Assembly (NCBI RefSeq): GCF_034274695.1
Contig: NZ_CP128362.1
Span: forward strand, 7,876,501-7,940,500
Origin: Chitinophaga sp. LS1
GTDB taxonomy: Bacteria > Bacteroidota > Bacteroidia > Chitinophagales > Chitinophagaceae
Direction: 5' to 3'
Length of the DNA stretch: 64,000 nucleotides
The notes below the pieces were generated by a model. That model was given only the letters and a program-made list of their open reading frames with translations, was not told the DNA's origin and made no database searches. A program made the position numbers and the translations under genes. How positions within the stretch are numbered: the stretch's first letter is position 1; the number at the start of each line of letters is the position of its first letter. Positions 32,224-54,700 of the stretch are shown piece after piece.

Positions 32224-32245
32224 AAAGGGGAGAAATCCCTTTTTT
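32222..32245 (+). terminator. Terminator after the transposase
   Basis: Stem AAAAAGGG / CCCTTTTT around a 7-8 base loop, directly after the stop codon. Confidence 0.65.
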
Positions 32246-33077: not shown

Positions 33078-33081
33078 ACAA

Positions 33082-34260: not shown

Positions 34261-34289
34261 GTTATTAGGTATTATATTTTTGAAAAAGA

Positions 34290-34934: not shown

Positions 34935-34974
34935 TCTTCATATTTTAAATGAATGGATTAACAGGGCATCATTT

Positions 34975-35709
34975 TTATTGATGGTTGCTTAACAATTGGA
35001 TGATTGCAGGTTTATGATCGTGGATAAAAAAATGTCCGCCTTCGAATCTATATACATTAAAATCGCCCTTCGTATAATCCCGCCAACCTTCTATCTGTTC
35101 TGAAGTCAGGTCTTCCTGATTTCCTATGAGCAGACTGATATCACAATCCAGTGGATGAATGATCTGTTCATCAAACTCTGTTTCTGCCAGCGTAAAATCA
35201 CTTATTAACAGTGGCAGAAACAACTCCATTAACTCAGGGCTATCAAAAAAGCCTTCTGGTGTACCGCCTAGGTTCAACACCTTTTCTTTAAATTCAGGGA
35301 ATGGCATTTTATGATATTTCTTTTTGTCAGGGCGGTTATTGTGCGGTGTTCCCTTTCCTGACACAAAAAGATGAAGTGGCTGAGGCAATCCTCTTTTTGC
35401 AATTTCACTTGACAACAAGTAACTGATCAATCCTCCCATACTATGTCCGAAAAGTATATATCTTTCTCTGGTGATATGGGGCTGAATGATGGACAATACA
35501 TCCTTTACTACAGCATGTATGTCTTTATAAAGCGGATCGGTCATCCTACTGCCTCTTCCTGCCAGTTCTACAGGTACTATTTCGATTGTAGAAGGTGCTA
35601 ATTCCTTCCATGTATTATAAATTGCAGCACTTCCTCCTGCAAATGGGATACAGAATACTTTTATCCTTTCAGCCATATTATTATCTATCATATTTAGGTC
35701 AAAACACAC
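34975..35709 (-). CDS. Type II thioesterase (editing)
   Basis: A 244-residue alpha/beta hydrolase of the type II TE family. It has FCIPFAGGSAAIY near the start, the nucleophile elbow GHSMGG (about residue 97), SGKGTP and GGHFFI with the catalytic His. It hydrolyses wrongly loaded acyl groups from carrier domains. In-frame ATGs at 35691 and 35676 (MAERIKV) are equally good starts. It is the only thioesterase visible in the cluster, so it is not a cis release domain. Confidence 0.88.
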   Translation of the reverse strand: MCFDLNMIDNNMAERIKVFCIPFAGGSAAIYNTWKELAPSTIEIVPVELAGRGSRMTDPLYKDIHAVVKDVLSIIQPHITRERYILFGHSMGGLISYLLSSEIAKRGLPQPLHLFVSGKGTPHNNRPDKKKYHKMPFPEFKEKVLNLGGTPEGFFDSPELMELFLPLLISDFTLAETEFDEQIIHPLDCDISLLIGNQEDLTSEQIEGWRDYTKGDFNVYRFEGGHFFIHDHKPAIIQLLSNHQ

Positions 35710-35730
35710 TGGTTACAAGGTAGTCATTCA

Positions 35731-36894
35731 CTATTGTCTATATGGCTTACCATATTGTTCTATACCGAAGTTACTTATGGCCTCCTGGTGTACCTGGTAA
35801 GTACCTTCAATAATCTCGAAGATCTTCGCCTCACGAAATAAACGTTCCACCGGATAAGCATTATGGCAACCGTTGGCACCATGCACCTGTATAGCGTTGT
35901 CTGTAGCTGTTCTGGCTATCTTTGATGTAAAACACTTCGCCATGATTGTTTCTATGTATGCATGCTCATGCTTTTCACGTCTTAGTGTACCGGCATTCAA
36001 ACACATTCCTCTGGCACTATGGACATTTATCGTTGTATCAGCGATCATATCCTGTATAGACTGGAATGATGACAACCGTTGTCCAAACTGTTTTCTGTTG
36101 ATAGCATAATGACACATTGCATCAAGGGATTCCTGGGCGAGCCCTAAACCGGCCCAGGCCACACTATACCTACCATAATCCAAAGCAGTATTAGCAATAT
36201 AGGTAAAGCCGCTTCCTTCAGACAATAGCATCTGTTCTTCAGATACTTCTAAATCAGTAAATGTAATTTCGGCGATGTAAGTACCCCTGTTTGCCATAAA
36301 GCCTCTCATGGGTGTTACAGTCACCCCGGGTGTATCTGCATCCACGAGAAATGCCGATACTGTTCCATTGTCCTGTGCAACAACCAGGAAGACATCTGCA
36401 ATTTCAGCAAAAGAGATCCACTTCTTTTTGCCATTTATCAGGAATTTTGTGCCCTGTCTGCTATAGGCAGTTCTGATATTCCTTGCATCAGACCCTACTT
36501 CCGGTTCGGAAAGTGCAAACGCTGCTATTTTTTCGCCAGCAGCGATCAGTGGTAACCATTTATTCTTTTGCTTATCGCTCCCCCATCTCAGGATAGTCTC
36601 GCCTACCAGGGAAGTATGCACTGTCAATAAGGCTCTTGCTGAGGAACATGCTTTGCTAAATTGTTCTGTCACTAAACCATAACTGATACAATCCATGGCC
36701 ATACCACCATACTTTTCAGGGAAAGTAGCCCCCAGATAACCTGCCCTGGCCATTTCTTTTATCAGATCTTCGGATATACCCTGTTCTTCATCGAACCGGG
36801 TTGCGAAAGGTCTGATATAGCTGGCTGCAAATATCCGGGCATTCTCCTGGATCTGCTTTTGATCATCTGTCATTTTTATTGGTTTTCTTTTCAA
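35731..36894 (-). CDS. Acyl-CoA dehydrogenase for hydroxymalonyl-ACP (FkbI/ZmaI-like)
   Basis: A 387-residue acyl-CoA dehydrogenase fold: FALSEPEVGSDARN, FLINGKKKWISFAE, GRYSVAWAGLGLAQ, QVHGANGCHNAYPVERLFREAK, EIIEGTYQVHQ. In methoxymalonyl- and hydroxymalonyl-ACP pathways such an enzyme oxidises the aldehyde of 2-hydroxy-3-oxopropionyl-ACP to the malonyl carboxylate. It differs clearly from the housekeeping enzyme at 3191. The first ATG overlaps the ACP gene by 32 bases; the ATG at 36873 (MTDDQKQ) overlaps by only 11 and is likelier. Confidence 0.88.
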   Translation of the reverse strand: MKRKPIKMTDDQKQIQENARIFAASYIRPFATRFDEEQGISEDLIKEMARAGYLGATFPEKYGGMAMDCISYGLVTEQFSKACSSARALLTVHTSLVGETILRWGSDKQKNKWLPLIAAGEKIAAFALSEPEVGSDARNIRTAYSRQGTKFLINGKKKWISFAEIADVFLVVAQDNGTVSAFLVDADTPGVTVTPMRGFMANRGTYIAEITFTDLEVSEEQMLLSEGSGFTYIANTALDYGRYSVAWAGLGLAQESLDAMCHYAINRKQFGQRLSSFQSIQDMIADTTINVHSARGMCLNAGTLRREKHEHAYIETIMAKCFTSKIARTATDNAIQVHGANGCHNAYPVERLFREAKIFEIIEGTYQVHQEAISNFGIEQYGKPYRQ

Positions 36895-37126
36895 TCAAAC
36901 TAACAATGTTATGAACGGTACTAAAGTTTTGCAGCTTGATATCCTCATTTTCTACTGTGAACCCGAATTCATTTTCAATAAAACCAAGCAGTTTCATTCC
37001 AAACAATGAATTCACATATCCTTTCTTAAAAATATCATCATCATCATGTAAGGTTACCGAACTTTCCTCATCAAACACGACAATGTTCTTCAGTATGAAC
37101 TTTCTGATTTTCTCTTTTACTTCCAT
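36863..37126 (-). CDS. Stand-alone ACP for the extender unit (FkbJ/ZmaD-like)
   Basis: An 87-residue acyl carrier protein. The phosphopantetheine Ser lies in KKGYVNSLFGMKLLGFIE (Ser about 40). The GYVNSLF form differs from the GGDSL of the modular ACP and PCP domains and is typical of carriers for methoxymalonyl, hydroxymalonyl or aminomalonyl units. It is translationally coupled to the following dehydrogenase. Confidence 0.88.
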   Translation of the reverse strand: MEVKEKIRKFILKNIVVFDEESSVTLHDDDDIFKKGYVNSLFGMKLLGFIENEFGFTVENEDIKLQNFSTVHNIVSLIEKKTNKNDR

Positions 37127-37131
37127 TTTTG

Positions 37132-38160
37132 TTATATTATTTCAACATTTATATAATTAGGTATTCCAGGGATTTCTTCGAGATCATGACCAAACTGAAT
37201 GTTGCCATTTTTGTCATTGCGTAGCTCATAGAAATTTGCGAACTTAAAGGTGACATACATCATTCTATTCCGGTCTGTCTGTTTAAAATCTGCTAATAAT
37301 CTGACATTGTTCTTCTTTGCTGCTGACATAATATGTGATAGCATCACCGTTCCCACGCCCCGTGATACAACCCGGCATGACATTAACAACAGTTTACAAC
37401 ACCAGGTTTCCGGTGATTTTTCAACCAGTGCGATGCCAATCTTACCGTATGAACCGAATTTATCTGACAGTTCGCACACAAACAGATCATAATCCTGTGC
37501 TTTTGAAAAGTGCAATAATTCTTCATAGCTATACGTTACACCGGTTGCATTCAGCTGGTTGGTACGTATCGTTAATTCTTCCACACGCTTCAGGTCCTTT
37601 TCCTCTGCTTTGGAGATAATAAAGCGCAGATCCAGCCCTGCCATGAATTCTTCCTGCGGACCTCTAAACTCTTCTTCCTGATTTTTTCTGTCGATATCAG
37701 CTTTGTACATCAATCTCCTGTTAGCAGTATCCTCTGTTATCACGCTGGGATTAAACCGTTCCAGGGAAGACAGCTGCAGATACATCTTTGCATCTATACA
37801 TTCTATTTCCGGATGTTGGCTCAGGACCTCTTCACGTTCAAAGATCTGGTCATCGACAAATACGATGGTATCTTTTCCGATATTTAATTGTTGCTGAATA
37901 ACAGTAATCGCATATGACTTGGCATCCCAAGCGATCTGCGGATAAAGAAAATAATGATCTATACCAAACTCAGATAGTTTCTTCATCGCATCATCTGCAT
38001 TATTTTTACTGGCTATAGAATGAAGAATTCCTCTCTCGTCAAATTGTTTCAACAGCTCCCTCATTTCTGGTTTTAACCTTACATCTGCATCTTCCAGTAA
38101 TGTTCCGTCCCAGATAGTATTGTCAAGATCCCAGACAATACACTTTACTTCTTTTGGCAT
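37132..38160 (-). CDS. FkbH-like glyceryl-ACP synthase (HAD family)
   Basis: A 342-residue protein. The N-terminal HAD phosphatase-like domain has VWDLDNTIWDG (nucleophile Asp), HSIASKNN and VFVDDQIFEREEV. The C-terminal part resembles a GNAT-like fold (GSYGKIGIALVEK, SRGVGTVMLSHIM). FkbH enzymes take D-1,3-bisphosphoglycerate, dephosphorylate it and load the glyceryl group onto the ACP. It starts the hydroxymalonyl-ACP pathway and lies next to its ACP (6 bases). Confidence 0.92.
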   Translation of the reverse strand: MPKEVKCIVWDLDNTIWDGTLLEDADVRLKPEMRELLKQFDERGILHSIASKNNADDAMKKLSEFGIDHYFLYPQIAWDAKSYAITVIQQQLNIGKDTIVFVDDQIFEREEVLSQHPEIECIDAKMYLQLSSLERFNPSVITEDTANRRLMYKADIDRKNQEEEFRGPQEEFMAGLDLRFIISKAEEKDLKRVEELTIRTNQLNATGVTYSYEELLHFSKAQDYDLFVCELSDKFGSYGKIGIALVEKSPETWCCKLLLMSCRVVSRGVGTVMLSHIMSAAKKNNVRLLADFKQTDRNRMMYVTFKFANFYELRNDKNGNIQFGHDLEEIPGIPNYINVEII

Positions 38161-38180
38161 ATTTTGTATTTTCTAATCAA

Positions 38181-39020
38181 TCAATATTTAAAAAACCCTT
38201 CTCCTGATTTTCTTCCTAACAGGCCTTTACCGACCATTTCACGCAACAGCTTACAACACATAAAGCGGTTATCTTTATAGCTATCATATAGTACCTCCAA
38301 CGAATTAACCACTGTATCAATTCCTATCAGATCTGCAGTTGCCAATGGCCCCATTGCATGACCATATCCCAGGGTGAAAATCTGATCAATATCTGCTGCT
38401 GATGCCACCTGTTCTTCCAGCAACATAGCTGCTTCATTCATATATAGATGGGAAACCCTGTTACTGACGAAGCCCGGCTTATCATTTACCACTATTGCCT
38501 TCTTGCCCAGCGTTGCCAGTGTCTTCTTCATATCTGCCAGTGTATCTTCTTCTGTAAGCGGTGATTTGATAACCTCTACCATTTTCTTTAATGGAACCGG
38601 GTTCATAAAGTGCGCACCTATTACACGGTCAGGATGATTGAAACAGGTGGCTACTTTTGCAATTTCAATACAGCTGGTGTTGATGGCAAGGGTCATGTCC
38701 TTTTTCATCAATGGGTTCAGCTCTTTATATAATTGTTCTTTCAACTGCCAGTTTTCCGGGATATTTTCAATCACGAAGTTTGCTTCCGCCACACTTTGCA
38801 ACCCAATTTCAAACCTGATGCGCCCCAATACTTCTTCCAGCGTAACCTGCTGAAACTGCTCTTTTACCATTTTTACCATCCTCAAGTCTGATCTCAATTT
38901 TGATTTGGCGGTATTCAGCACTTCTTCACTTATATCAATCAAAACTACATTGTATCCATTCAGGGCAAAGTCAAGCGCAATGCCTGTACCCATTATACCG
39001 GCTCCTATTACTGCTATCAT
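38181..39020 (-). CDS. 3-hydroxyacyl-CoA dehydrogenase for extender unit (FkbK/ZmaG-like)
   Basis: A 279-residue NAD-dependent dehydrogenase: Rossmann GAGIMGTGIALDFAL, INTSCIEIAKVAT, GAHFMNPVPLKKMVEVI, NDKPGFVSNRV, GYGHAMGPLATADLIGID. It should oxidise the 3-hydroxyl of glyceryl-ACP to the aldehyde. It lies between the loader NRPS (31-base gap) and the FkbH gene (20-base gap). Confidence 0.9.
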   Translation of the reverse strand: MIAVIGAGIMGTGIALDFALNGYNVVLIDISEEVLNTAKSKLRSDLRMVKMVKEQFQQVTLEEVLGRIRFEIGLQSVAEANFVIENIPENWQLKEQLYKELNPLMKKDMTLAINTSCIEIAKVATCFNHPDRVIGAHFMNPVPLKKMVEVIKSPLTEEDTLADMKKTLATLGKKAIVVNDKPGFVSNRVSHLYMNEAAMLLEEQVASAADIDQIFTLGYGHAMGPLATADLIGIDTVVNSLEVLYDSYKDNRFMCCKLLREMVGKGLLGRKSGEGFFKY

Positions 39021-39051: not shown

Positions 39052-42000
39052 TTAGTCGATGAATAATTTGCTCAGATCCTCATTATCCAGGTCCACCAGA
39101 TCAAGGTCAATACCTGGCAAATGCAATTCATTTCCGTTGATGGAGCTGCGGGAGAATTCTTCCAGATAATTTTTATAATTCTCCAGAAAGATGGCTATAT
39201 CAGTCTTTAAAAATGCATATTGGTCATATGCCACATTTATCCGCAGGCTACCATTCACGATCATACAGTTAATGTCGATCTTTGCTGTCCGGTGATTTTT
39301 ATTACCTATATTATTCCTACCTGTGGTTGCAACATAGGTGAACAAATCATTGCTTAAATCCCGGTCAAAAACACCCAGATAATTGAATCTTACTTCCGAA
39401 ATTTTGTTTAAATCAGCGAAAGCACGCTTCATAAACATTAATATTCCAAAGCCAATCCCATTATCAGGCACGTGGTCTATCTGCCTTTTAATGCGTTGTA
39501 ACTGCATCCCCAAATCGCCGCATTTATAATGGAATACCTGTGGATACATGACAGTAAACCAGCCAATGGCATTAGACACATCCAGCTGCCGGAATGATCT
39601 GCCATGGCTTTCCAATTCGAGGGTAATATTTGTTCTTCCCGTCCACTTATTCAATGCTTCCAGCAATCCGGCTATCAGCAATGCCTGTAGATCCGTATTA
39701 GGGAATAATTTGCTATGCTGTATGATCTCATCAGTTGTAGCTGCATCAAACAACAATTCCTCTTCCTGGTAATTCTCATGCAGCCATGTTGTAACAGCTA
39801 CCTGTACCGGCAATGCAAAGTCGTTTTGCACAATATCATTCCAATACTCAAACTGATCATTGATGTAAGACTTATCTATAGAGTCAGCCAGCAGCTGATG
39901 CCAGTCTCTGGCAGACGCCGTCTTTTGATATGCAACAGGAGAAAGGCTATTGTCAAACAACAGGTATAGCTGATGTATATCTGCCAAAAGGGTTCTCCAT
40001 GAAACGCCATCGATAACCAAATGGTGCACCATAATATACAGATAGTCTACCTCGTCTGCCACGGTGATCAGAAATACCCTTATCAGCAAATCATTTTCGA
40101 GATCAAAAGAGGTATTCAGCTGGCTGAGCTCCTGTTCCAGCTGCGCCTGTGTTGCGATGGCTGATGTCATCACAGGCAGATCCTGTTGTAACGCTTCCCT
40201 GTTATAATTTACAAGCATACGGTGGAGATCGAAATTTTGTCTTAACCCATCATAGCGAAGCAATATTTCGTTCAGAACTTTGGTTAAGATCATCTTATCC
40301 ACCCGCCTATGCATTTTAAGCAGGGTTGTCTGGTTATATATACCTGGCTGCGCAAGGGATAATCCGGCAAACCAGCTTTCAATCGGTATAAAGCCTCTGG
40401 TACCAGATAAAATGCCCTGTTCAAACTGGTTAACGGGCTGCAATTCTGCCTGTTTGCTGATTTGTGCGATAGTTTGCCCCAGCAGAATATTCTTTGTATT
40501 TACATTGATATGATACTGTGACAGGCGGGAAACGATCTGTACCGCTTTTATAGAATCGCCTCCTAATTCAAAGAAGTTATTGTAGATACCTATATGTTCC
40601 TGCTCCAACAACTCCTGCCATACTTCTATCATCCGTTGCTGCACATTATTTTCAGCTTGTGCATATGCTACCTGTTCCGGTAAAACAGGCAGGGCCAATA
40701 ATGCTGGTACATCTACCTTACCATTATTATTTATTGGAATACGCTCCAGAAAATAGTACTGTCGGGGTATCATGTAGAAAGGCAGCTCCGCCGACAGCTG
40801 GTCCTGTAGTTCCTGCAAAGCAGACTTACGGAATTCCTGTAGACTGAGCGTTTCTTTGTACTGATTTTCAAAAACAATATATGCGCATAATATACCGTCA
40901 TTATTTCCATTGCCGGTTACTTTTACTACCGCCTCCTTCACCAGCCTGGATTTTAGCAGCTGCGCCTCTATTTCTCCCGGCTCAATGCGGAATCCTTTTA
41001 TCTTCACCTGATTGTCCGACCGGCCTTTGTACATCAGGATACCATCATGCGACCATACACCCAGATCTCCTGTTTTGTAGAGCTTTGCTCCCTGAATAAA
41101 AGGATGCGGGATAAACTTTTCACTGGTGAGGGCTTCATTGCCTACATAATATTTAGCCAGACCATGGCCGCCTATATAAATCTCTCCAATTGCTCTGATG
41201 CCTACCGGCTTTAAAAATTTATCCAGTAAATAAATCTGGGTATTATCGATCGGCTTACCAATTGCCACTCCAACATCTGTATCCTTTGACAAATCAAACA
41301 GATGTATCATACAACCAACCGTGGCTTCGGTTGGTCCATATTCGTTAAATATCTCCACCTTGTTGTGGTACTTACTGCTTAGCAGCCTGGCCAGTGATAC
41401 CTTCAGTTCCTCTCCACCTACAATAAACCGGCTGATCTTACTATTATTGTTTACTGGCAGAAAATCTGTGAGTAAGGCCAGATGTGATGGTGTCACCTTT
41501 ACGACATCTACCCTATTATCATTTACTACCTGTTCGATGGCTATACCAGCAGCATTGTCCCTGTAAATGATAATCCGCCCGCCACTCAGCAAAGGCACAA
41601 ATATCGAGGTAACGGTGAGATCGAATGATACGGAGGTGAACAAAGGAAATACCAGCTTCTCTCCTTTACAATATACCTTAGCCGCCCAATAAATATAGTT
41701 TACCAGCGACTGGTTGGAGATAGCTACACCCTTAGGGGTACCAGTAGTACCAGAGGTATAAATCACATAAGCTGTATCAGCTGGCTGTGGTATGTGCTCC
41801 GCTACTGTTGTACCTTCGTATGGTAATTCATCCAGTAATAAAATAGGTGGATGATCAGACAATCCCCTGCCCAGTTCAGCACCATGTACATCATACCAGT
41901 TCTTAATGCTTATGACCACTGTAGCCTGGCTATCTTTCAGGATATAACTGATTCTGCTCAACGGCATACTGGTATCTATCGGTATGTAGTAGCCACCTGC

Positions 42001-45000
42001 TTTGATAACTGCCATTAATGCTGCTACCTGATCATGATCTGACTCCATAATAATCGCCACAGGCTGCTTGCCTGTTACACCATGCTGTTGCATAACAGCA
42101 GCTAACTGGTTGATCCTGGACTGTAAATATCCATAGCTCCACGCTACACCATTATACTCAACGGCAGTAGCATCCGGCTGCATGTTCACCATTTCTTCAA
42201 ATAATGTAACAACCGTTTTTTGTGCCGAATAAGCTCTTTCTGTGTCATTAAACTGATGTAGGATCTCATTGATGGAGGCAGCACTGTGTGTTGACATATC
42301 AGCCAGCAGCTGATCTGTATTTTCAGCAATATGGTGCAAGATCTTCAGGAAACTTTCAGCATAGCCATGCATAGTCTCCTCTCTGAAAAGGCTAGTTGCA
42401 TACTCTATACTGAATGCCAGTTCATCTGCCTGCTCAAATATTTCAAAGGACAGGTCAAACTTGGAGAAACCAGGGTCAAAATCCTTTTTGCGGATGAATA
42501 CTCCTTGTACATCAGGGATGTTTAATTCCATATTCTGGTAATTAAACATTGTATCAAATACCAGGTGGTTACTTAAGGTCCTGTGCCTGTTTGTAACATC
42601 CACAAGCATTTCAAACGGATATTCCTGGTTATCCAGCGCAGATAATATATACTGTTTTAACTCTTTTAAATATGCTTTATAACTTTTGCCTGCTTCCGGA
42701 AAACTCCTCACCACCAGATTGTTTACAAACATTCCGATCAGATCTTTGATCTGTGGTTGTGTTCGGCCAATGACCGGCACACCTACCAGTAGATCTTCCT
42801 GTCCGGCATATTTAGATAAAAGAATCTTATATGCAGACAGTAACAATGTGAACATGGTAGTCTTTTCCTGTTTTGCCACTGCCTGTAACGCACGGAATAA
42901 TTCCTGACTTACCGGGAAGGTCAACCGCTTGCCTGCAGTGTTAAAAGAGGTAGTTCTTTGCAGGTCAACCGGCAAATTCAGCACCGGCAGTTCATCTCCC
43001 AGCCGCTGTTGCCAAAAAGCAGTACCATCCTGGTAAATGCTGCTATGCTCATTTTCCCAGGCGGCATAATCCCTAAAATGCAGGGCAGGTGCTGACAGTA
43101 CGTCACCATTGTATACTTTAAAAATATGTTCCAGCAGGATATAAATGGAAGAGCCATCTGCTATGATATGGTGGCAATCGATAAATAATACTGATTTATC
43201 TGACTGGCATTTGAGATATACAACTCTAAAAAGCGGCCCATTATGCAAATCAAATGGCTGAACCAATGCCTTCAATTCGGAACCTGTAACTTCATCAGCC
43301 GTCTCCAGCATCTGAAAGGCAAGCATTGCATCGGGGTTGATTACCTGAAGCGGGAGGCCATTTTCGATGATAAATGTTGTTCTTAAAATATCAATTGACG
43401 CATATATGTCACTGATTGCATTTTTCAGCTTCACCTCATCAACAGGCCCATCAAGTGTAATTGCAAATGGAATATTATAGGCAGTGCTATTTTTATCTGC
43501 TTCCCAAGTATAATATATTCTTCTCTGGGCAGCTGACAATACGTAATGCGGTTGCGCTTGCAGGGCAGGAATAGCCTGCAGAACATGCTTTTCCTTTTTT
43601 GTAATCAGTTCACTTAAGCTAAAAATATTGCCACAACCATAGATTTCCTCGAAAGTGATCTTTATCCCAAACGCATCCTGTATATAAGCCACCAGGGAAG
43701 CCATTTTGATAGAATTGCCTCCCAGGGTAAAAAAGTTATCGCCAACGCTCAGCTGATTGCCATACAACAGCTTTTTCCAGTATTCCAGTAACCTGGCCTG
43801 TATGTTATTTTGTGGTTCAATATTCAGCATACCTGCAGCTGATGGTTTTGGCACAACAGCTGAAATTTCTTCCACAACAGTATCGAATACTCCACTATTA
43901 TACAATTCGATCAACTTGTAGCGCTGCACTTTTCCACTGGTGGTTTTGGGTATCTCCCTCACCGGGATCACTTTATCTATTTCTATACCCAAAGTACTGT
44001 TGACCCTGTTAGTTAACTGTTGTAACAGTGGCAGGAAGGTCTCCACCTTTCCTTTGAACAAAACAAAAACGAATAATTCTTCCCGTTGAGTGATATGGTT
44101 GGATTGACCAGCTACGGCCACTTTTCCCAGGTCAATACCATCTATAGTTTCAATTACATTCTCAATATCATGGGGGTAAAAATTTTGTCCGTTCAGGAAG
44201 ATAATATCTTTTGCCCTGCCGGTAACAAATAAACAACCTTCATGCACAAATCCAAGATCACCCGTGCGTAACCAGGCATCAGCAGTGATTACTTTTTCAG
44301 TTGCTGCTGTGTTATTATAATACCCTGCTGTTACATTTCCTCCTTTTATGAGGATTTCACCAATTGTATTATCGGAAAGTGCATTACCGGTTACATCAGT
44401 AATTTTAACGTCACAGTTCCAAACTGGTTTACCAAGGTTCACACAGGCAAATGTGTTATCCTGCTGGTCTAATAAGACCTTGTCTCCCATACCTACATGA
44501 TCTCGGCTTACATGCAGGACCTTCATATTTGCTTCCGGCTGGGAAAATGTTACTGCAAGACTAGCCTCTGCCAATCCGTATACAGGGAAAATAACATTAC
44601 TTTTTAAACCATATCTGGCCAGTTCCGTCGTAAATTCCTGACACAGTGATGCGGAGATAGGCTCAGCACCATTTGTGATAATACGCAGGCATGACAGATC
44701 ATAAAGACCATCTTCCGTATTTCGCAAAGCATTCAGCAGGTATCTGTAGCCAAAGTTGGGGGATGCTGTAAAAGTGATGCTGTGAATGGAGATTTTTTGC
44801 AACCACAGCGTTGGCCTTCTTATGAACAGTTCTGTAGGCATAATAAAATGCTTCCATCCCATATACATTGGTGTCAGATGGTAGCCTATCAATCCCATAT
44901 CGTGCGTAAGTGGCATCCAGGAAAAGAAAAGATCACCTGTGGCAGGAGCAGCTATTCCTTTCAAAATAGCATTAACATTCGTAACAAGATTCTTATGTGT

Positions 45001-45588
45001 GAGTACAACACCTTTAGGGTTGCCGGTAGAACCAGAGGAAAATTGAATATAGGCTATATCATTCACACCGGGTGTATGCATAATACCTGGTGTATGATCT
45101 TCATTAATGATCGTATCAAAACAATATCTTGTATTTACCTGTTCGTAAACAGTCGTTTCGTTTTCTCCCCAGATGAATGTTGTTATTCTGGAAAACTGCG
45201 CTTCATATGTAAATAAGTAAGGCTTATGCAGTGTTTTCCATACATTGATTAGTTTTCTCTTCTGGTCATCATTTCTTCCCAAGCTTAAGGGTACAGGAAT
45301 GATTCCTCCTAACAGACATGCCCAGAATACGATTATAAATGAACGGTTATTATCCAGCTGGAATACCATCTCATCGCCTGGCTGAAGACCCAGCTGCTGC
45401 AGGTATCCTAACACACTTACAGATTGTTCATAAGCATCAGCATAGGAAAGCCAGTTTTCTTCATTTGCTCCGTTTATAAACATGATACCACCATCAGACT
45501 TCGCACTATCAAGAAACGCACTTACCAGTGTCTTGTTTTTCATATACCGTAACTTATTAAAGATTGGATTAAAGATGTAATCAAACAA
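39052..45588 (-). CDS. FAAL-ACP-C-A(Asn)-PCP-E acyl-D-Asn loading synthetase
   Basis: A 2178-residue NRPS. FAAL domain about 15-580 (SSGSTGNPKGV; the FAAL-type MPLTHDMGLIG; GRAKDIIFLNGQNFYPHDIE), ACP with GGNSI (about 624), C with HHIIADG (about 806), A about 1110-1635, PCP with GGDSI (about 1675), and E about 1735-2140 (HHLVIDGVSW, ESHGRS, GWFTVMYP, FNYLG). Aligning A to GrsA gives pocket residues D-L-T-K-I-G-E-V-G-K, close to the published Asn code DLTKLGEVGK. The product should be N-acyl-D-Asn on the PCP. The tail is acidic (DLDLVDLDNEDLSKLF), perhaps a docking peptide. The first ATG overlaps the peptidase gene by 8 bases; MKNKTLV at 45543 is an alternative start. Confidence 0.93.
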   Translation of the reverse strand: MFDYIFNPIFNKLRYMKNKTLVSAFLDSAKSDGGIMFINGANEENWLSYADAYEQSVSVLGYLQQLGLQPGDEMVFQLDNNRSFIIVFWACLLGGIIPVPLSLGRNDDQKRKLINVWKTLHKPYLFTYEAQFSRITTFIWGENETTVYEQVNTRYCFDTIINEDHTPGIMHTPGVNDIAYIQFSSGSTGNPKGVVLTHKNLVTNVNAILKGIAAPATGDLFFSWMPLTHDMGLIGYHLTPMYMGWKHFIMPTELFIRRPTLWLQKISIHSITFTASPNFGYRYLLNALRNTEDGLYDLSCLRIITNGAEPISASLCQEFTTELARYGLKSNVIFPVYGLAEASLAVTFSQPEANMKVLHVSRDHVGMGDKVLLDQQDNTFACVNLGKPVWNCDVKITDVTGNALSDNTIGEILIKGGNVTAGYYNNTAATEKVITADAWLRTGDLGFVHEGCLFVTGRAKDIIFLNGQNFYPHDIENVIETIDGIDLGKVAVAGQSNHITQREELFVFVLFKGKVETFLPLLQQLTNRVNSTLGIEIDKVIPVREIPKTTSGKVQRYKLIELYNSGVFDTVVEEISAVVPKPSAAGMLNIEPQNNIQARLLEYWKKLLYGNQLSVGDNFFTLGGNSIKMASLVAYIQDAFGIKITFEEIYGCGNIFSLSELITKKEKHVLQAIPALQAQPHYVLSAAQRRIYYTWEADKNSTAYNIPFAITLDGPVDEVKLKNAISDIYASIDILRTTFIIENGLPLQVINPDAMLAFQMLETADEVTGSELKALVQPFDLHNGPLFRVVYLKCQSDKSVLFIDCHHIIADGSSIYILLEHIFKVYNGDVLSAPALHFRDYAAWENEHSSIYQDGTAFWQQRLGDELPVLNLPVDLQRTTSFNTAGKRLTFPVSQELFRALQAVAKQEKTTMFTLLLSAYKILLSKYAGQEDLLVGVPVIGRTQPQIKDLIGMFVNNLVVRSFPEAGKSYKAYLKELKQYILSALDNQEYPFEMLVDVTNRHRTLSNHLVFDTMFNYQNMELNIPDVQGVFIRKKDFDPGFSKFDLSFEIFEQADELAFSIEYATSLFREETMHGYAESFLKILHHIAENTDQLLADMSTHSAASINEILHQFNDTERAYSAQKTVVTLFEEMVNMQPDATAVEYNGVAWSYGYLQSRINQLAAVMQQHGVTGKQPVAIIMESDHDQVAALMAVIKAGGYYIPIDTSMPLSRISYILKDSQATVVISIKNWYDVHGAELGRGLSDHPPILLLDELPYEGTTVAEHIPQPADTAYVIYTSGTTGTPKGVAISNQSLVNYIYWAAKVYCKGEKLVFPLFTSVSFDLTVTSIFVPLLSGGRIIIYRDNAAGIAIEQVVNDNRVDVVKVTPSHLALLTDFLPVNNNSKISRFIVGGEELKVSLARLLSSKYHNKVEIFNEYGPTEATVGCMIHLFDLSKDTDVGVAIGKPIDNTQIYLLDKFLKPVGIRAIGEIYIGGHGLAKYYVGNEALTSEKFIPHPFIQGAKLYKTGDLGVWSHDGILMYKGRSDNQVKIKGFRIEPGEIEAQLLKSRLVKEAVVKVTGNGNNDGILCAYIVFENQYKETLSLQEFRKSALQELQDQLSAELPFYMIPRQYYFLERIPINNNGKVDVPALLALPVLPEQVAYAQAENNVQQRMIEVWQELLEQEHIGIYNNFFELGGDSIKAVQIVSRLSQYHINVNTKNILLGQTIAQISKQAELQPVNQFEQGILSGTRGFIPIESWFAGLSLAQPGIYNQTTLLKMHRRVDKMILTKVLNEILLRYDGLRQNFDLHRMLVNYNREALQQDLPVMTSAIATQAQLEQELSQLNTSFDLENDLLIRVFLITVADEVDYLYIMVHHLVIDGVSWRTLLADIHQLYLLFDNSLSPVAYQKTASARDWHQLLADSIDKSYINDQFEYWNDIVQNDFALPVQVAVTTWLHENYQEEELLFDAATTDEIIQHSKLFPNTDLQALLIAGLLEALNKWTGRTNITLELESHGRSFRQLDVSNAIGWFTVMYPQVFHYKCGDLGMQLQRIKRQIDHVPDNGIGFGILMFMKRAFADLNKISEVRFNYLGVFDRDLSNDLFTYVATTGRNNIGNKNHRTAKIDINCMIVNGSLRINVAYDQYAFLKTDIAIFLENYKNYLEEFSRSSINGNELHLPGIDLDLVDLDNEDLSKLFID

Positions 45589-48500
45589 CGTTTAGTTGCA
45601 TTTGCACAATGGTGCCCTGTCCCATTTTCATCACCTGGTCAGCTATATGGAAGTAAGCATCGTCATGAGAAATGATTATAATGATCTTCCCTGCTTCTTT
45701 CAACTGGAATATGAGATCATTATAAAAGAATTTCCGAAACACAGGGTCCTGATCTGCAGCCCATTCATCGAATATTACAATGGGCTTATTCTCAAGGTAA
45801 GATACGAGTAAGGCCACGCGTTTTTTCTGTCCGGAAGACAACTGAAAGTTTGAGAAACTACCATTTAGTAAAGATATCTTTTTGTCCAGCTGCAGCAACT
45901 GGATTTTTTCACTGATCTCACTATCTAATCCATCCAAATCGATTCCGTAGAGTTTATCAAATAAATGGTAATCACTAAAGATAGCAGAGCAATGTTCTCT
46001 CAGTTCAAATGCTTCCTGTGGTTTTCCATCAATCAGGATGGCTCCTTCAGAAGGACTATACAGACCACACAGTAATTTCGCCAGCGTAGATTTACCACTT
46101 CCATTTCCACCGACAATAAATAAGACTTCTCCTCTTTTCAGTTGGAAGGAAACAGGTCCCACTTTAAAGCCGGTCCCATCCAGTTCATAGTTATATCGCA
46201 CATTGTCTACTAGCAGGTGTGCTATTTCACTGGTTGGTCGTAGTGCCGGATTTATTGTCTGGTCAGTAGCTATATCAGCAATCTGGGCTTCGAAATGATT
46301 GATCCGGTTCCATGATATCCTGATACGCGCCAGTTGTGGTAATGCACTTAAGATCATGTTAACAGGTCCGGTCATGTACAGGAACACAAATACAAAGGTC
46401 CTGATCTTACTTTCATCGAGGTTCAGTAGTATCAATGGAAAGATAAACACGACGACACCAATCACTGCTGTAAAGATCAATTCTCCGATCACAAAGACAT
46501 CTGCATACATGACACCTGATTCGATATTTGCATTTCTGAAGTTAGCTCCGTTTACCCGCATGTCAGCTTCAAAAGCCAATCGCTTTCTGAGATTCAGCTT
46601 TAATTCCTTAAATCCATTTACAATATCATTGAGAAATTTAAAATAGATATTCTGATGATCCCTGGCTTTTTCAAGGGTAGCATGTGCTTTTCTGTTTACC
46701 AGATAAAACAGGGATACTGCAACCAACACTGTTCCGATGGCAATGCACATTCCCCAGAGATTTACGAATGCGAGATATATAAAACAACAAACCAGTGTTA
46801 CTGATCCCGTTACCACAGCTACAAGGGAATTGGGCAAGTTGCTTATTTCCTGTGTATCGTTATTTAAAACCGTCAGTAGATTTTCCTTCTTTATTCGTTC
46901 GACCTGATGAAAGGAAGAATTCAGAAATAATTTGACCAGTTCCGTACGGGTATTAAACACGAAGTCATTTACCATCCTTACCAGTTTTCTTCGGATTTCA
47001 CGCTGTGCATAGATATAGATAGCGATACCGACCAGCAGAAATATTACAAAACCATTGCTGATAGCATCTTTCCTGGAGATGCTCTGGTTAATCACAATAA
47101 TGATCAGGCTGTTTGCAAATCCCCCTAAACAGCTCAGTGTAGCTACCGGAAACAGCATCCGGTCATTTTGCTTTATAAACATTGTGGTAGCTATGAAGTA
47201 AAGGAAAAACAACGCAAGCGACAGATAAAACAATGTAATGACTGACTGGAAACTTTCCGGTGCCCATACTACCATAAACTGCCAGGATAATCCATCAAAA
47301 CAAGCTTTGGGTATGATATAAAAGCCGATCCCTATCAGTAACAGCAAAAACAGTGTACGTAATAGCGTCAGTATGGCGGTCTTTCGTGATAAACTGAATA
47401 CCCTTACGCCTTTGATTACTTCAAGCACAAACTTTACAGCGTACCAGGCAGTAGCTATCATAAATAACAGTACGATAATGCCAAGCACTACCATAAATTT
47501 ATCTAACTGGCGATACATGTCTCCATCATATGGTATCGGCGCTTCTCCTTCCACGATCCGCAATACGCCACGGGCAATTCGCTCTGTATAGGCTGTATTC
47601 AGGTTACATAGTACAGCAACACCTGTGCTATCGGTATGATGATACACGATGTATGAAGCGTAATTGGGATTTCTTCCGCCATGTGCAATCGTCCCATCGC
47701 TATCACGGGATACTAACCATCCACCGGCATAATAAGCCCCGTTTGCATCAGGTAGCACGCTGCTATCTGGTACATGCGATGCCTGGATCACCTCGTTCAG
47801 CAATGTATCTGTCGTCCCTTTTAATTGTATGGTCAGCCATTTCTCTATCTCATCAATGTTAGCCGTAAGATAACCTGCCGGGTTATTGCCTTCAAATGGT
47901 GGGGCTTCGTAAGGTATGGGTTGCAAGTATCCGAATTTATAACCTGTTGCCTTTTCAGGCATCTTTCCATAAGTAAAGCGGGCGGTATTTAAACCCAAAG
48001 GGGTTAAAACCTGCTCCTTTATAAATGTTTCAAAAGGTTGACCGGCCACTTTTTTAATGATGAGTCCAAGAACGTCGTAATTAATAGTGGCATACAGAAA
48101 CTTTGTTCCAGGCAGGTTTTCGAGTGTTGTTCCTGACAAACGCTTTACAGTTTCTTCCAATGCTTTATTACTATGTTCGGGCCGGATCAGATCAATAGCC
48201 GAAAATGGAATACCGGAAGTATGATGTAAACAGTTACTGATCGTTATTTCCGGCGTGACAATCTTTCCATCTGGTAATTTATATTTCAACTGAAACCATG
48301 GCAGATATTTGTGGACTGGATCATTCATATTCAGCTGACCTGTTGCTGCCAACCGCAGAATACCTAATGCTGTAAAAGCTTTGGTATTAGAGCCGATTTC
48401 AAAAGTGGTCCTATTATTTACTTGTTCCTTACGTGCAAGATCCGCATATCCATATGCTGCTTTATAAACAGGTTCGCCCTTTTGTAATACAACAATTGAA

Positions 48501-48682
48501 AGTCCGGGGATCCCTGACTTTGACATTTGTTCCTTGACAAAACCATCCACGCTGTTTATTACATCCTTCTTTTGCTGCGGCAAGGCAACGGCCGGAAGGA
48601 CAGATAATAAGATCAAATAGGCAAATACAATCCATCTGCCAGTATATTTGCTTCTTGGCGGCAATCCAAAAGTTGGCAACAT
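45581..48682 (-). CDS. S12 serine peptidase fused to ABC exporter (ZmaM-like prodrug activator)
   Basis: A 1033-residue fusion. A hydrophobic leader (about 17-34) is followed by a beta-lactamase/DD-peptidase-like domain (about 40-385) with the SxxK motif SNTK (Ser98, Lys101), Tyr197 in LYATINYD, and HGG (about 334). This spacing is like ClbP (Ser95, Lys98, Tyr186). TM segments follow (about 395-560), then an ABC transmembrane region and an NBD with VGGNGSGKST, LSSGQKKR, IVIFDEWAADQD and ISHDD. The peptidase faces the periplasm. In zwittermicin-type clusters such fusions export the precursor and cut after acyl-D-Asn. Co-occurrence with the Asn-E loader next door supports this role. Confidence 0.9.
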   Translation of the reverse strand: MLPTFGLPPRSKYTGRWIVFAYLILLSVLPAVALPQQKKDVINSVDGFVKEQMSKSGIPGLSIVVLQKGEPVYKAAYGYADLARKEQVNNRTTFEIGSNTKAFTALGILRLAATGQLNMNDPVHKYLPWFQLKYKLPDGKIVTPEITISNCLHHTSGIPFSAIDLIRPEHSNKALEETVKRLSGTTLENLPGTKFLYATINYDVLGLIIKKVAGQPFETFIKEQVLTPLGLNTARFTYGKMPEKATGYKFGYLQPIPYEAPPFEGNNPAGYLTANIDEIEKWLTIQLKGTTDTLLNEVIQASHVPDSSVLPDANGAYYAGGWLVSRDSDGTIAHGGRNPNYASYIVYHHTDSTGVAVLCNLNTAYTERIARGVLRIVEGEAPIPYDGDMYRQLDKFMVVLGIIVLLFMIATAWYAVKFVLEVIKGVRVFSLSRKTAILTLLRTLFLLLLIGIGFYIIPKACFDGLSWQFMVVWAPESFQSVITLFYLSLALFFLYFIATTMFIKQNDRMLFPVATLSCLGGFANSLIIIVINQSISRKDAISNGFVIFLLVGIAIYIYAQREIRRKLVRMVNDFVFNTRTELVKLFLNSSFHQVERIKKENLLTVLNNDTQEISNLPNSLVAVVTGSVTLVCCFIYLAFVNLWGMCIAIGTVLVAVSLFYLVNRKAHATLEKARDHQNIYFKFLNDIVNGFKELKLNLRKRLAFEADMRVNGANFRNANIESGVMYADVFVIGELIFTAVIGVVVFIFPLILLNLDESKIRTFVFVFLYMTGPVNMILSALPQLARIRISWNRINHFEAQIADIATDQTINPALRPTSEIAHLLVDNVRYNYELDGTGFKVGPVSFQLKRGEVLFIVGGNGSGKSTLAKLLCGLYSPSEGAILIDGKPQEAFELREHCSAIFSDYHLFDKLYGIDLDGLDSEISEKIQLLQLDKKISLLNGSFSNFQLSSGQKKRVALLVSYLENKPIVIFDEWAADQDPVFRKFFYNDLIFQLKEAGKIIIIISHDDAYFHIADQVMKMGQGTIVQMQLNVV

Positions 48683-48713: not shown

Positions 48714-51700
48714 TTATTTGCCTATTAATCTTTTAAGCAAATTGATGTATAGCTGCGATATTTTTTTGATCTGTGGTCCGGCAAAAACAGCTCTGTTAAA
48801 AGTGAAATCAACTTTAATAGCATTCACGAATTCACTCAGGTAAACGGTTAATTCAAACTTGCAATCTGTTTCATAATCGGTTATTACTGGTTCAGTTGGT
48901 TCATACTCAATAGTTCGCTTCTTTGAGAGGTCAATGTTCTGCATATTGAAGAAGTATTGCATAGCGGGTAACTTCATATTTAGCTTATCCAATACTGTAT
49001 CAATAGGGAAATTCTGATGGCTTATACATTCGCTCACACTGAAGTGTAAATCTTTGATAAATGGAATAATTTCTAACTCCTTATCAATGGGAATTTTCAT
49101 CAATAAGGTGTTTGCGAAGAATCCAACAATTTCATTCAGGTCCGGATTATCTCTTCCAGATGTCGCGATCCCACAAACAATTTCATTTTCGTCAGTCACT
49201 CTGGCCATTAAAATATTAAAGGCCGCAAACATGGTGATAAAGATAGAAGTATTATTCGATTTAGCAAATATCTTTAGCTCATTTAATATCATATCATCAA
49301 CATACAACACAAGCGATGATGACTTTCCTATAATGGATCTTGTGGTGGACCTTACAGTTTTCTGTTCAGCAAAATTCTCTTCGAAGATTTTCTTCCAGTA
49401 CACAAAAGAAGGATGCGCCTCCATATTTTCATTTGCTCTGAAACCGTCTTCCTGTAAGGCTAAATCCAGGAAATTATATTTCAGCAATTGTAATTGCGGT
49501 GTTCCGTTTCTGAGCAGGGACAGGTATATTTCTGAAAAATCATTTCCTAAAATATTCATGGACCATGCATCTGCAATGATATGATGAATCGTAATGATTA
49601 TTTCAAATTTATCTACCGCCAGTTCATATACCCTTATCCGGTACAAAGGATATGCTGATAGTATAAATGGTTTTAAACGTTCTTTTGCCACATCTCCCTT
49701 AATCAGTGCATCCTGTTCAGCAACAGACATTGCTGACAGATCATGGAATTGTATATCCGGTGCCGGTGCATCTTTCAGGAATTGTAAAGGAACACCATCC
49801 TTCTGCATAATGTAGGAAGACAGGGTAGATTGCCGCTCTTCCAGTACGCGGAATGCATCAATGATCGCCTGCCTGTTAAAGGTTTCATTGATTGCTACCC
49901 TATTGACAATATTGTACGAGCTATCTGCAGGATTCAGCTGATTGATAAACCAAAGTCTTTTCTGGTTGTAAGTCAATGCTGCCTGACGGGCATCCGGATA
50001 ATGCACTAATTCCGGGAACTGCGTTTGCAATGAATGATCTTCTTTTGTACCCAACAGTTCCTTGAAATATGCGGCCAATAGTCTGATCGTGTTATATTGA
50101 TAGATAACATCAACACTAATATTCATATACCCAAATTCTTTCTTGTAACTGTTTAAGAACTTTAATCCAATCAGGGAGTCGCCTCCAAGGCTAAAGAAAT
50201 CTGCATCCGGATCGATGGCATCATATTTAAAATGCTTTTTCCAAATGCTTAATATGGTTTGCTCAATATCGTTTTTGTTTAGCTGTTGTGTTTGTACGGG
50301 ATCTGTTGCTGCTATAGCTGATGGCTGAGGTTTTTCTCCTGCCAAGCGGACATTTTTGTAGAACTGGTTTTTATCATGATACACTGCCCACCTGCGGTAA
50401 GTGCCATCTACAATTTTTAACATGTAACGGTTACCATCTTCATGCTGCAGATAATTACTTTCTTCCACACCCTGTTTTCCCTGCATGCGGGTATTCAATT
50501 CATCCAGCCGCTGTCCCATTCCGACATTCCATGCTGGCCAGTTAACAGTTATTACACGGGTCTGGTCATTAAATTCCGGATCAAAGCTGTAGGAATCGAG
50601 AAAAGCATTGGCTGATGCATACGCCAGGTTATTAATATTATTGAACACCGTTGCCATGGATGAAAATAACATAACGAAATCAATATTTCTTCCACGAATG
50701 GCATGCTTAAGATGAATGGTTCCCTTTACCTTGGCACTGAATGCTTCATCCAAAACGGATGCTTTCAGGGAATTGGTCGTACCGCCAAAGGAATCTGTTC
50801 CGGCTGCATGAAATATGCCATCCACTTTCCGGCCTTTTGCTTCTATCTGAGTAAAGATACCGGCTACCTGTACCGGATCTGACATATCGCAGGAGATATA
50901 TTCCACTGTTCCCGTTACTGCTTCAGTCTGCAGGAGATTTGACTGCCCCATTATTAAGCCAAATGGTACTGCACCTTCCTGGTCGCCCGCAAAGCTATGG
51001 ATATTCTCAAATCCATTTTCCACATATTTATCGCCCCATTTCTCCAATGATAACAATGGAGAATTATCTGCTATTCTTTCATCCACGAAGTTCCACCAGC
51101 CATCGGTTAATCCCCAGATCAGGAACTCCATCTTTTGTTCTATAATATTCTCTACCAGACATAGTACGCCGAAGTGTACCAACAGCTTCTTCAAATTTTT
51201 AAACGTCACATTGATATCCGGCGTAGCATGTACCACACAAAACCCTATGATGACATCAAATGGTTCATGCCCAAAACGTTGTTGCAGAGGGTCTTTTGAA
51301 ATATCCAGTATGTCAAAATTCATTTGTCTGGACGACGTACTTCCGAAAGTATTTTCGGCTTTTTCTATAAATGATTTTGATATATCAGTAAATACATATT
51401 GAACAGGTGTATCCTTTAGTCCGTTCAACACATAGGTAGTCAACATTCCTGATCCCCCGCCAATTTCCAGTATTCTTACCGGCCGCTGTACCTGCTGGCT
51501 GATGGCTGCAATGGTTTCACAGATTGTCTCCGCATATTTTGCAACAGCATAATTATCATCTCCCGGATCTTTAAATGACTTTAAAAAGTTCAGATCACCA
51601 CCCGGGAAAACAACATTCAATCCTGTATCCCTGCCTTCAAATACGTCCTGGTATTTACCTGTACAATGACGCAGCAGCTCAGCTACGCTGTTTGCACCAG

Positions 51701-54700
51701 CACCACTATTCCATTTTACCTCTTCATCAATATTGGCTGTATGAAATACATACCCCTCTGCAGTCTGCTTTACCATCCCACTTTTCACCAGTAATGAGAG
51801 CAGATACTGCTGGAATCTTGCCAGTCGTTGTCCTTGTATTTTCGCTGTCCATGCTGTCTCCGAAATAGTATGGTTATCTGCACCAAGACCCAGGTAAGCT
51901 TTCATTGCATGGTATACCAGCAGTACTGAATACTGATCGAGTCTTTGTGTAAAATCCAGTTTTTCTGCACCCTTAGCGGTAAACATAGCTGCCAGTCCAT
52001 CCACCAGTTTTTTCCATGAGGTAGTCATTGCTGACAGGTAAAACCCCTGTAAGGTATGAGCGGCAGGTGCTGGCTTTCTACCAACCAGCACTATATTTGC
52101 CCCGTAATCAGCAGACAAGGTGGCAGCCAGTTTAACACCGATTCCGCCCGTACCACCTGTGATGACATATGTGCCACCTTTTTTCAGCTGTGAGCCATAA
52201 CTCACTTCGTTATCTAATGAAACGATATTAAAGCCTTCGGTAAAAATGTTGTTCTTTCTTAATACCAGTACTGGGAATTTATTAAATTCAATGCTTACCT
52301 GTATGGCTTCTTTTATCAGTTCGCCAATATCGCCTGCCAGGAATTCGGTTTCATCCACATCCATCAGCTGCGCATATAATGCCGGATATTCTTTTATTAT
52401 TCTTTTTGTTAAACCGGAAAGTATATTTTTTAATGCATACAGCCGCGTATCTCCATTTGTAAACTGAGAATTGGTGGTCAGCATGATCAGCCTTCCCAGG
52501 TTTTCAGGCCTCACCTTAGCCGCCTGTTGTACAAGATATAATACAGCGAGGTATTCCTGCTTTATCCTATCAAACATGCTGTCATCGAACGGCAGACATA
52601 ACCGGAGGCTGATGACATTCCAGGCCCCGGACTTTGATGAGCTGAGTGCTTCAAAAAGGCGGAGATAGTCATTTTCGTTGTATGGATCTATCTCAAACTG
52701 GCTGGCAGCTCTTTTCTTAAATTGCTTTCCCTGGAAAACCAGTATGGCATCCGAATACAATTGTAATAGTGAAGACGTATTCAACAGGCTGTCATCTTCA
52801 GGTAGCAATATCAGATAATTTCCTGCTGCTATATCTTTTGGCTGGCTTCTATGCCTAAGGTATTTCCATTCGGGTACATAACCATAATCTCCGGCAGGGA
52901 GCATCTTTTCTCTCTGATTGGCAGATTTGTTATCCGTATTTAATAATTTAAAAAACTGTGCTTTGTAATCTGGAGCATATTCCTGTTTGTCAAAAGCATA
53001 GCCGGGCAGGGACGTTTTACGGAATTCGCTGGTCCTGTAAAATTTGTTCCAGTCAATATTTATTCCATATAAAGCTAACTGGCCAATGGCCTGATAAAAA
53101 ATAGTCTGTTCTCCCGCCAAGCTTTTAGGATGTTTTAGAAAATGAATGGCAGCCTCATTACGCCTGGCTGAAGACTCCTTCACTATATTCATGAGGGTTG
53201 CACCAGGGCCTATTTCGAGATACAGCAGATCGCTAGTTTCCTGTATTTGCTGTATGCCTTTGTAAAACAAAACTGGTTTTCTGATATGAGAGACCCAGTA
53301 ATCACTGGTCATCATTTCGGTTTCGGTCAGCCAATTACCTGTTATACATGACACAATAGGGATAGCTGGTTTATTGAACTTAAATCCTTTTACAATGGAT
53401 GCATATTCATCCAGTACAGGGTCCATCAGCCTCGAGTGTCCGGCACAGGAAGTATTTAATTTTTTATACAACACTTCTTGCGATGCTAAAATATTGCAAA
53501 ATGCATCTATAGCATGGACCGGCCCCGAAATGACCCAGCTTGTGGGGCCATTGATCCCGGCTATTTCGACATCGTTAGTGAGCAGTGCTTTGAGGGTTGC
53601 TTCATCTGTCGACACTGCTACCATGCTACCCGGTAAAGCCTGCTGCATGACGCGGCCACGGTTGCATATCAGCTTTACGGCATCTTCCAGAGACATTACG
53701 CCGGCAATACATGCACAGGCATATTCTCCCAGACTATGGCCGATCATGGCAAACGGTTTGACACCATAATGGATCAGAAGTTTTGCCAGTGAATACTCTA
53801 TTGAAAACAACAGCACTGGTACTGCCTGCACTTCTGCCAGTGGCTGATAACCTTCCATCTCTCCTCTTCCTTCAGGATATAAGAATGGCTTGTGATTGAT
53901 GCCACTATACCTGAAAATAATATCAAAACAGGTATCTAATACTTCTCTGAAATAGGGATCTTCTTTGTATAAGGAAGCGCCCATATGCGGATATTGCGGC
54001 CCTTCACCCGGAAACATAAAGATCAGTTTCGGTTCGGTTCGGTATTTATATTCTACCTGTATTCCATTGCCTGTTTTCATTGACCGGACAGCATCTATAC
54101 GGCTATCGGCCACAAACAGGCTTCTGTAATTAAGTAATTTTCTTCCTGACAGCAGTGTATATGATACATCCGGGAGTTGTACACTTTCCTGTTCTTCCAG
54201 GAATGAAGTCAGGTTTTCAGTTGTATTTGTCAGCGAAGCAGGTGTGTTGCCGCTTACCACCAGCAATTGTGTTGCTCTGCCTTTGTAGGGTGCTACAGGT
54301 GCCGGCTGATATTCTTCCAGGATAACATGCGCATTCGTTCCGCCAATGCCAAAAGAACTTACGCCTGCCCGCCGTGGTATACCCGTGGTGGTCCAATCCC
54401 TCAATTGTGTATTTACATAGAAGGGAGAATTGTTAAAATCAAAATTGACGTTTGGTGTATCGCAGTTGATCGATGGTGGCAGGACATGGTGTTTTAAAGC
54501 TAATGCAGTCTTTATCAGGCCTGCTACGCCTGCCACTACATCCAGGTGGCCAATGTTACCTTTAACTGATCCTACACCGCAATAGCCCCTCTTTTTGGTA
54601 TTAAATGCCTGTCTGAGGCCTTCCAGTTCTACGGAATCACCAATGCGCGTACCCGTACCATGGCATTCCACCATTGTGATGGTCTCCGGATCTACCTCTG

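Follow-up and report, generated by a model that had tools for sequence, protein, structure and literature searches.

What does a gene cluster make in which a nonribosomal peptide synthetase (NRPS) starting with a fatty acyl-AMP ligase (FAAL) lies beside an S12 peptidase joined to an ABC exporter? This question is raised by a stretch of 64,000 nucleotides from Chitinophaga sp. LS1 (contig NZ_CP128362.1; G000 C1:7876501-7940500), called the window here, from a genome of 8.67 Mb in a single contig. According to our analysis the cluster would build an inactive N-acyl-D-asparaginyl precursor that is activated at export, a reading to which we give a probability of about 0.88. A first-pass annotation of the window had proposed such a precursor, matured at export, and the proposal is supported by the asparagine (Asn) code of the NRPS, by the peptidase pocket and by the peptidase tree. 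The NRPS, referred to as the loader, and the fusion protein comprise the following features (ACP and PCP, acyl and peptidyl carrier proteins; C, A and E, condensation, adenylation and epimerization domains):

39052..45588, minus strand: loader NRPS, FAAL-ACP-C-A(Asn)-PCP-E, 2178 residues from a TTG start or 2163 from the ATG at 45543
43834..45588, minus strand: FAAL domain, residues 1-585 (profile and PDB sequence matches, FAAL tree)
43603..43794, minus strand: loader ACP, residues 599-662, motif LGGNS
42265..43554, minus strand: loader C domain, LCL-like, residues 679-1108, motif HHIIADG (Pfam and trees)
40714..42201, minus strand: loader A domain, code DLTKIGEVGK (Asn)
40444..40668, minus strand: loader PCP, motif LGGDS
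39055..40443, minus strand: loader E domain, motif HHLVIDG
45581..48682, minus strand: S12 prodrug peptidase (predicted) with ClbP-like membrane domain and cyclic peptide ABC exporter, 1033 residues
47579..48547, minus strand: S12 domain of the fusion, residues 46-368, with E95, S98, K101, Y197, T199, K244, N266 and N338

The peptidase-exporter fusion

In Pfam the fusion protein matches Beta-lactamase (198 bits) and ABC_tran, and its exporter part is recognized by the NCBIfam model for cyclic peptide export ABC transporters (TIGR01194) with 363.1 bits at a cut-off of 286.2. A PDB sequence search returned full-length ClbP as the top match, aligned over residues 48-482 and reaching into the membrane domain, with Flp near behind over the peptidase domain alone. 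Via this alignment the ClbP residues described in PMC9889268 were mapped onto the fusion, and 10 of 10 are present: E95, S98, K101, Y197, T199, K244, N266, N338, W467 and W473. The SxxK and tyrosine catalytic residues S98, K101 and Y197, as well as the joined exporter, had been read correctly in the first-pass annotation. In PMC9889268 prodrug peptidases are characterized by Asn at N331, Ser or Thr at 188 and His or Asn at 257; the fusion has N338, T199 and N266 at these sites. The equivalents of W460 and W466 in the membrane domain are W467 and W473, and in ClbP W466 touches the acyl chain (PMC9889268). An AlphaFold model of the fusion, computed with 24 sequences (mean pLDDT 80.5, pTM 0.65), has full-length ClbP entries as its best solved structural matches, the alignment covering residues 36-498. 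Since the mapped residues are complete and no solved structure matches the model better than full-length ClbP, capping with acyl-D-Asn and decapping at export appear well supported.

The pocket is conserved among relatives. In the 49 S12 rows above 150 bits from the fetched loci (45 distinct genes once double fetches are removed) Thr188, Asn257 and Asn331 are present throughout, with Gln92 in four, W460 missing in three and W466 missing in two. Among the 239 homologues listed, Asn331, both tryptophans and Ser or Thr at 188 occur in all, Asn257 in 237, and site 92 is Glu in 196 and Gln in 43. Of the 16 other S12 proteins found in the genome seven were tested, and none has Asn at site 331 (another residue in five, a gap in two), while site 188 is Asn in six and a gap in one. 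Flp has Leu at site 331 and Asn at site 188.

In a tree of 78 S12 rows the fusions, the stand-alone forms and ClbP form a 66-row group with a modest support of 85; Flp and the seven own-genome paralogues lie outside. The kinship with ClbP that had been proposed is thus borne out by a tree which contains ClbP, without XcnG and ZmaM themselves, and in which one row entered as a fusion (P0106) is an incomplete protein with no ABC domain listed. The window fusion belongs to a 10-row group (support 98) that includes the fusion of G061 and a partial Chitinophaga protein, among others. A separate 22-row group (support 99) contains one Candidatus Aminicenantes protein together with all further named Bacteroidota fusions of the tree; two fusion lineages therefore occur in the genus. 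A cell-wall DD-peptidase reading of the S12 domain was rejected because of the pocket residues, the membrane domain and the tree. Another long S12 protein of the genome (2059091, L011), fusion-like by its length, was rejected as a GH3-beta-lactamase protein. In four Bacteroidota loci a second S12 protein stands beside the fusion (L028:7273, L032:13047, L098:3674, L100:2); it has Gly at site 188 and Asn at site 331 and forms its own branch (support 99).

A variant loader with its own ligase and C domain

Pfam finds two AMP-binding, two condensation-family and two carrier stretches in the loader, with the HHxxxDG motif once in C and once in E and the carrier serine motif in both carriers. The A domain, with code positions taken from motif positions given in the literature, reads DLTKIGEVGK and is followed by PCP and E, as in an Asn-type loading module. 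The open reading frames of loader and fusion lie where the first-pass annotation had put them, and the domain order and the Asn-type code, the latter set beforehand as a refutation test, also agree with what it had given. The 8-base overlap it described between the two genes is doubtful, because it depends on translation of the loader from the TTG at 45588; in the database the loader protein (P0122, 2163 residues) lacks the first 15 residues and begins with the ATG at 45543, so that 37 bases separate the genes.

For the first ligase, 18 solved chains score above the best CoA ligase in the PDB sequence search, with 242 bits to the fatty acyl-adenylate ligase 3pbk versus 107 to 3a9u, the best 4-coumarate CoA ligase. 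FadD32, FadD23 and FadD28 chains are among these 18 structures, not all of which are labelled FAAL by their depositors. The domain can be aligned with 6ulw along its length; FAALs carry a FAAL-specific insertion. In the FAAL tree 38 FAALs of Asn loaders lie on one side of a branch (support 98), and 15 other FAAL starters of the genus, picked from a longer list as controls, lie on another branch (support 99). As judged from these matches, the first ligase is FAAL-like and nearer to FAALs than to CoA ligases. A related possibility, which we regard as unlikely, is that the FAAL-like domain loads some other carboxylic acid, so that the product would be a D-Asn prodrug with an unusual, non-fatty cap. 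The substrate of the ligase is not readable from sequence, and McyG, which loads non-fatty acids, is among the close structures. Against this, the nearest NCBIfam ligase models are fatty acyl-AMP ligases, though with scores below their cut-offs, and the tryptophan equivalent to the acyl-chain-contacting W466 of ClbP is present.

The first-pass annotation had further supposed that FAAL-ACP takes the place of the starter C domain. This did not hold: the loader keeps a C domain, but one whose sequence is LCL-like and not like that of canonical C-A(Asn)-PCP-E loaders, of which XcnA, ClbN and ZmaO are examples. A tree of 157 rows drew on 45 of the 48 FAAL-C rows and 20 of the 62 E rows. In it the 39 C domains from Asn FAAL loaders come out as a single clade (support 100), nested in a group of 92 rows with 26 of the 28 LCL rows (support 96), and 17 canonical loader C domains are found in a separate 18-row group (support 99). 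An 80-row tree again placed the FAAL-loader C domains among the LCL rows (support 95-99), with the 17 C domains of canonical loaders on one side of a branch (support 100); three or four long-branched LCL rows were left out of it. L119_3_4256, a canonical loader by rule-based label, grouped with the LCL rows and was excluded from the 56-row and 80-row analyses. Approximately unbiased (AU) tests of a joint clade of both kinds of C domain gave p values of 0.268 (56 rows) and 0.072 (80 rows), and a shared origin is thus not formally rejected, although the free trees of both analyses put the FAAL-loader C domains among the LCL rows. By BLAST, the loader C domain is 21-27% identical to canonical loader C domains and 24-34% identical to those located after an A domain in other NRPSs. 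Taken together, the sequences point to a variant rather than a canonical acyl-D-Asn loader, with a C domain of LCL-like sequence. On the acceptor side, a 23-row DCL clade (support 100) holds the first C domain of the NRPS at L009:566-5644, a locus reached just beyond the window, along with the acceptor C domains after the FAAL loaders of two genus-mates (L109, L119). Such DCL-type acceptors fit a D-configured donor.

The sequences directly show the order of the domains, the code for Asn, the intactness of the motifs, the peptidase pocket, the family of the exporter, the subtype of the acceptor and the linkage across genomes; from them we infer substrates, stereochemistry, the periplasmic site, the later module order, the product and its toxicity. 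In the proposed pathway the FAAL would adenylate a free fatty acid and load it onto the adjacent ACP, the C domain would join the acyl chain to Asn on the PCP, and the E domain would convert Asn to the D form. The DCL-type C domain at the start of the other NRPS (L009:566-5644) would then accept the acyl-D-Asn, and the hybrid line would extend it. Finally, the ABC half of the fusion would carry the product out, and in the periplasm the S12 half, which sits on the ClbP-like membrane domain, would hydrolyse the D-Asn amide and release the free amine of the mature product.

Several points weigh against this pathway. By score the S12 domain is no farther from Flp (183.7 bits) than from the peptidase domain of ClbP taken by itself (167.3 bits); what separates it from Flp is its pocket, its membrane domain and its context. 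ClbP is a long branch in the S12 tree (support 81-85). Position 235 varies, with Lys in only 41 of the 239 homologues listed, and K235 is therefore not diagnostic. The code DLTKIGEVGK, treated in the Asp/Asn section of PMC12283262, is called 'also compatible' with a cyanoalanine there, and may thus stand for this residue as well. Lastly, the loader gene closes the run of NRPS genes, and it is domain logic that assigns it the position of first module.

The cluster, its strain and its relatives

Around the loader and the fusion lie the following genes (PKS, polyketide synthase; HAD, haloacid dehalogenase):

55612..64000, minus strand: PKS-NRPS, KS-AT-KR-DH-ACP-C-A-PCP, A code DILQLGMVWK, with its ATG at L009:542, slightly beyond the window
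48714..55589, minus strand: PKS-NRPS, KS-AT-MT-KR-ACP-C (Pfam)
38181..39020, minus strand: 3-hydroxyacyl-CoA dehydrogenase family, extender-unit gene
37132..38160, minus strand: FkbH-domain HAD protein, extender-unit gene (TIGR01686, 267.5 bits, cut-off 146.65)
36863..37126, minus strand: small free-standing ACP, with 62-65% identity to the ACP that neighbours S12 genes in L061, L066 and L075
35731..36894, minus strand: acyl-CoA dehydrogenase family, extender-unit gene
34975..35709, minus strand: type II thioesterase
34290..34934, minus strand: 4'-phosphopantetheinyl transferase
32436..33077, minus strand: second 4'-phosphopantetheinyl transferase

On the minus strand the order from L009 onwards is a Cy/C-A-PCP-C protein, a free AT, C-PCP-C-A-PCP and the two PKS-NRPSs listed, followed by the S12-ABC fusion, the loader, the four extender-unit genes, the thioesterase and the two transferase genes, which flank a glycosyltransferase gene. 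In Paenibacillus solani, P. profundus and P. apiarius (L061, L066, L075) the same four extender genes adjoin stand-alone S12 and C-A(Asn)-PCP-E genes. Such a four-gene set makes a hydroxymalonyl-type ACP in zwittermicin and xenocoumacin. At L009:6898-12753 the A domain of the Cy/C-A-PCP-C protein, with the code DLYNMSLIWK, which we take to be a Cys code, is interrupted by a nitroreductase-like insert; this combination suggests that the product contains a thiazole.

The cluster lies on a strain-specific stretch. A genome of the same species (G053, 380 contigs) was compared by DNA over window 20001-39000, L009 and L010, and over window 39001-63499 by the loader and fusion proteins only. Its DNA matches window 20001-25127 at 100%, ending between tRNA-Gly (24959-25032) and tRNA-Leu (25150-25236), and resumes in L010 from 4551 (genome 7964550) at 99%; the rest of the window to 39000 and L009 gave short matches only, and no full-length match to the fusion or the loader was found in G053. 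As only the flanks match, about 63 kb with the cluster (window ~25127 to L010:4551) are absent from G053 or too diverged. NRPS matches in G053 are located on the contig holding the left DNA match, as if clusters had been exchanged at that spot. A group II intron maturase and two transposases lie towards the ends of the stretch (28628-29887, 31330-32223, L010:3196-4251). A silent or decayed cluster without a product would agree with this position among mobile elements, but it is very improbable: the large open reading frames are unbroken, the checked loader motifs are intact, and a loader 84% identical over the searched part is known from elsewhere (P0123).

Within the genus a full-length match to the fusion was found in 12 of 79 genomes and one to the FAAL loader in 10, all of them among the 12 (up to 10 fusion and five loader candidates were scored per genome). 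Loader and fusion are neighbours, or split only by a thioesterase gene or a short gap, in LS1, G076, G077 and G008, are 44-94 kb apart on one contig in G058, G065, G030 and G042, and are on different contigs in G013 and G020, where the fusion lies close to the end of its contig. In G061 a canonical C-A(Asn)-PCP-E loader without FAAL adjoins the fusion. The fusion of G034 (L105, G034:C1:1422591-1425548) has all of the catalytic Ser, Lys and Tyr replaced and keeps both membrane-domain tryptophans, and no full-length FAAL loader match was found among the up to five candidates scored there; the exporter may have outlived the peptidase.

The loader was surveyed in 44 proteins, namely 10 genus loci, one being the window's own, and 34 of 120 homologues listed (1,900-2,350 residues long), P0122 being the window's loader again. 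Of these, 39 are FAAL-ACP-C-A-PCP-E proteins with the A code DLTK[IV]GE[VI]GK, and five (P0151, P0156, P0169, P0203, P0207) carry different codes and have a C domain at their end. Among the named organisms with the loader are Chitinophaga polysaccharea, Fulvivirga sp. 29W222 and Aquimarina spongiae. That the loader starts an ordinary lipopeptide which retains its acyl-D-Asn, with the S12 domain serving, say, cell-wall or self-resistance hydrolysis, is very improbable: other kinds of FAAL-started NRPSs do occur in the genus and the S12 domain resembles Flp in score, but all 15 control starters read other codes than Asn and match the loader only up to residue 1633-1721, before the E domain (the sequences retrieved for them end too early to reveal one), the window fusion has a complete D-Asn pocket, and the 10 full-length FAAL-Asn-E loaders of the genus occur only in genomes with a fusion.

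The Bacteroidota host claimed in the first-pass annotation is confirmed, yet it is not a single odd case, as fusions with the same pocket are found in Chitinophaga, Pedobacter, Tenacibaculum and Fulvivirga. To judge by contigs of equal length, loader and fusion seem to lie together in six pairs from outside the genus, each pair sharing a contig, for example in Fulvivirga sp. 29W222 (111,733 bases; P0236 and P0248). A first scan of genome contigs turned up no relative, and in 395 evenly drawn Bacteroidota genomes (E 1e-120, two scored candidates per genome) the fusion was found only in the window's own genome; across the phylum as a whole it is therefore rare. Among named proteins, the closest full-length fusions come from Brevibacillus, with 44% identity. 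We consider it reasonably likely that Bacteroidota evolved their own entry to acyl-D-Asn prodrugs, in which FAAL-ACP and an LCL-derived C domain replaced the starter C domain and provide a free-fatty-acid cap independent of acyl-CoA, the loader travelling with fusions across Chitinophaga, Fulvivirga and other genera. It would seem that the chemistry that starts the cap can be exchanged while the recognition of D-Asn is retained.

Comparison with known acyl-D-Asn systems

We know of no FAAL-initiated lipopeptide NRPS with an Asn-E module and an S12 partner. A FAAL-started acyl-D-Asn loader was not found in open-literature titles and abstract starts; most subscription papers lie outside this search and absence in print is not claimed. 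Papers with both ClbP and Chitinophaga were not found among open-access papers. As far as the open literature shows, the FAAL-ACP loader with an LCL-like C domain, recurring in Bacteroidota, is new. The architecture of the peptidase-ABC fusion was already known from ZmaM, EdeA and PamJ, as was the D-Asn strategy (PMC9889268). Some Flavobacteriaceae clusters are described as 7-22% similar to zwittermicin A (PMC10734526). The loader would be a second architecture, in a phylum not named for ClbP-type systems in the part of PMC9889268 available to us. If Bacteroidota did evolve their own entry in this way, loader and fusion mark an unexplored set of prodrug natural products. Capped precursors would expose toxic or antibiotic natural products from sequence alone; FAAL, DLTK[IV]GE[VI]GK, E and S12-ABC together provide a search handle, and the enzymes are directly testable.

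With ClbP (colibactin) and the XcnG-type stand-alone peptidases the fusion shares the S12 domain, the D-Asn pocket residues and the membrane domain with both tryptophans, but it has an ABC exporter at its C terminus, whereas ClbP-like proteins have about 450 residues (PMC9889268). ZmaM (zwittermicin), EdeA (edeine) and PamJ (paenilamicin) likewise combine the peptidase with a cyclic-peptide-transporter domain in about 1,100 residues and differ in host phylum, with Firmicutes, Proteobacteria and Actinobacteria named for them in that part of PMC9889268. The canonical C-A(Asn)-PCP-E loaders have the same A code, PCP and E, and in many loci an adjoining peptidase gene; unlike them, the loader described here carries FAAL-ACP in front, and its C domain stands elsewhere in the tree. 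The FAAL-ACP-C start is shared with puwainaphycin-type FAAL-initiated lipopeptide NRPSs (PMC4219810), in contrast to which the FAALs of the Asn loaders form a branch of their own.
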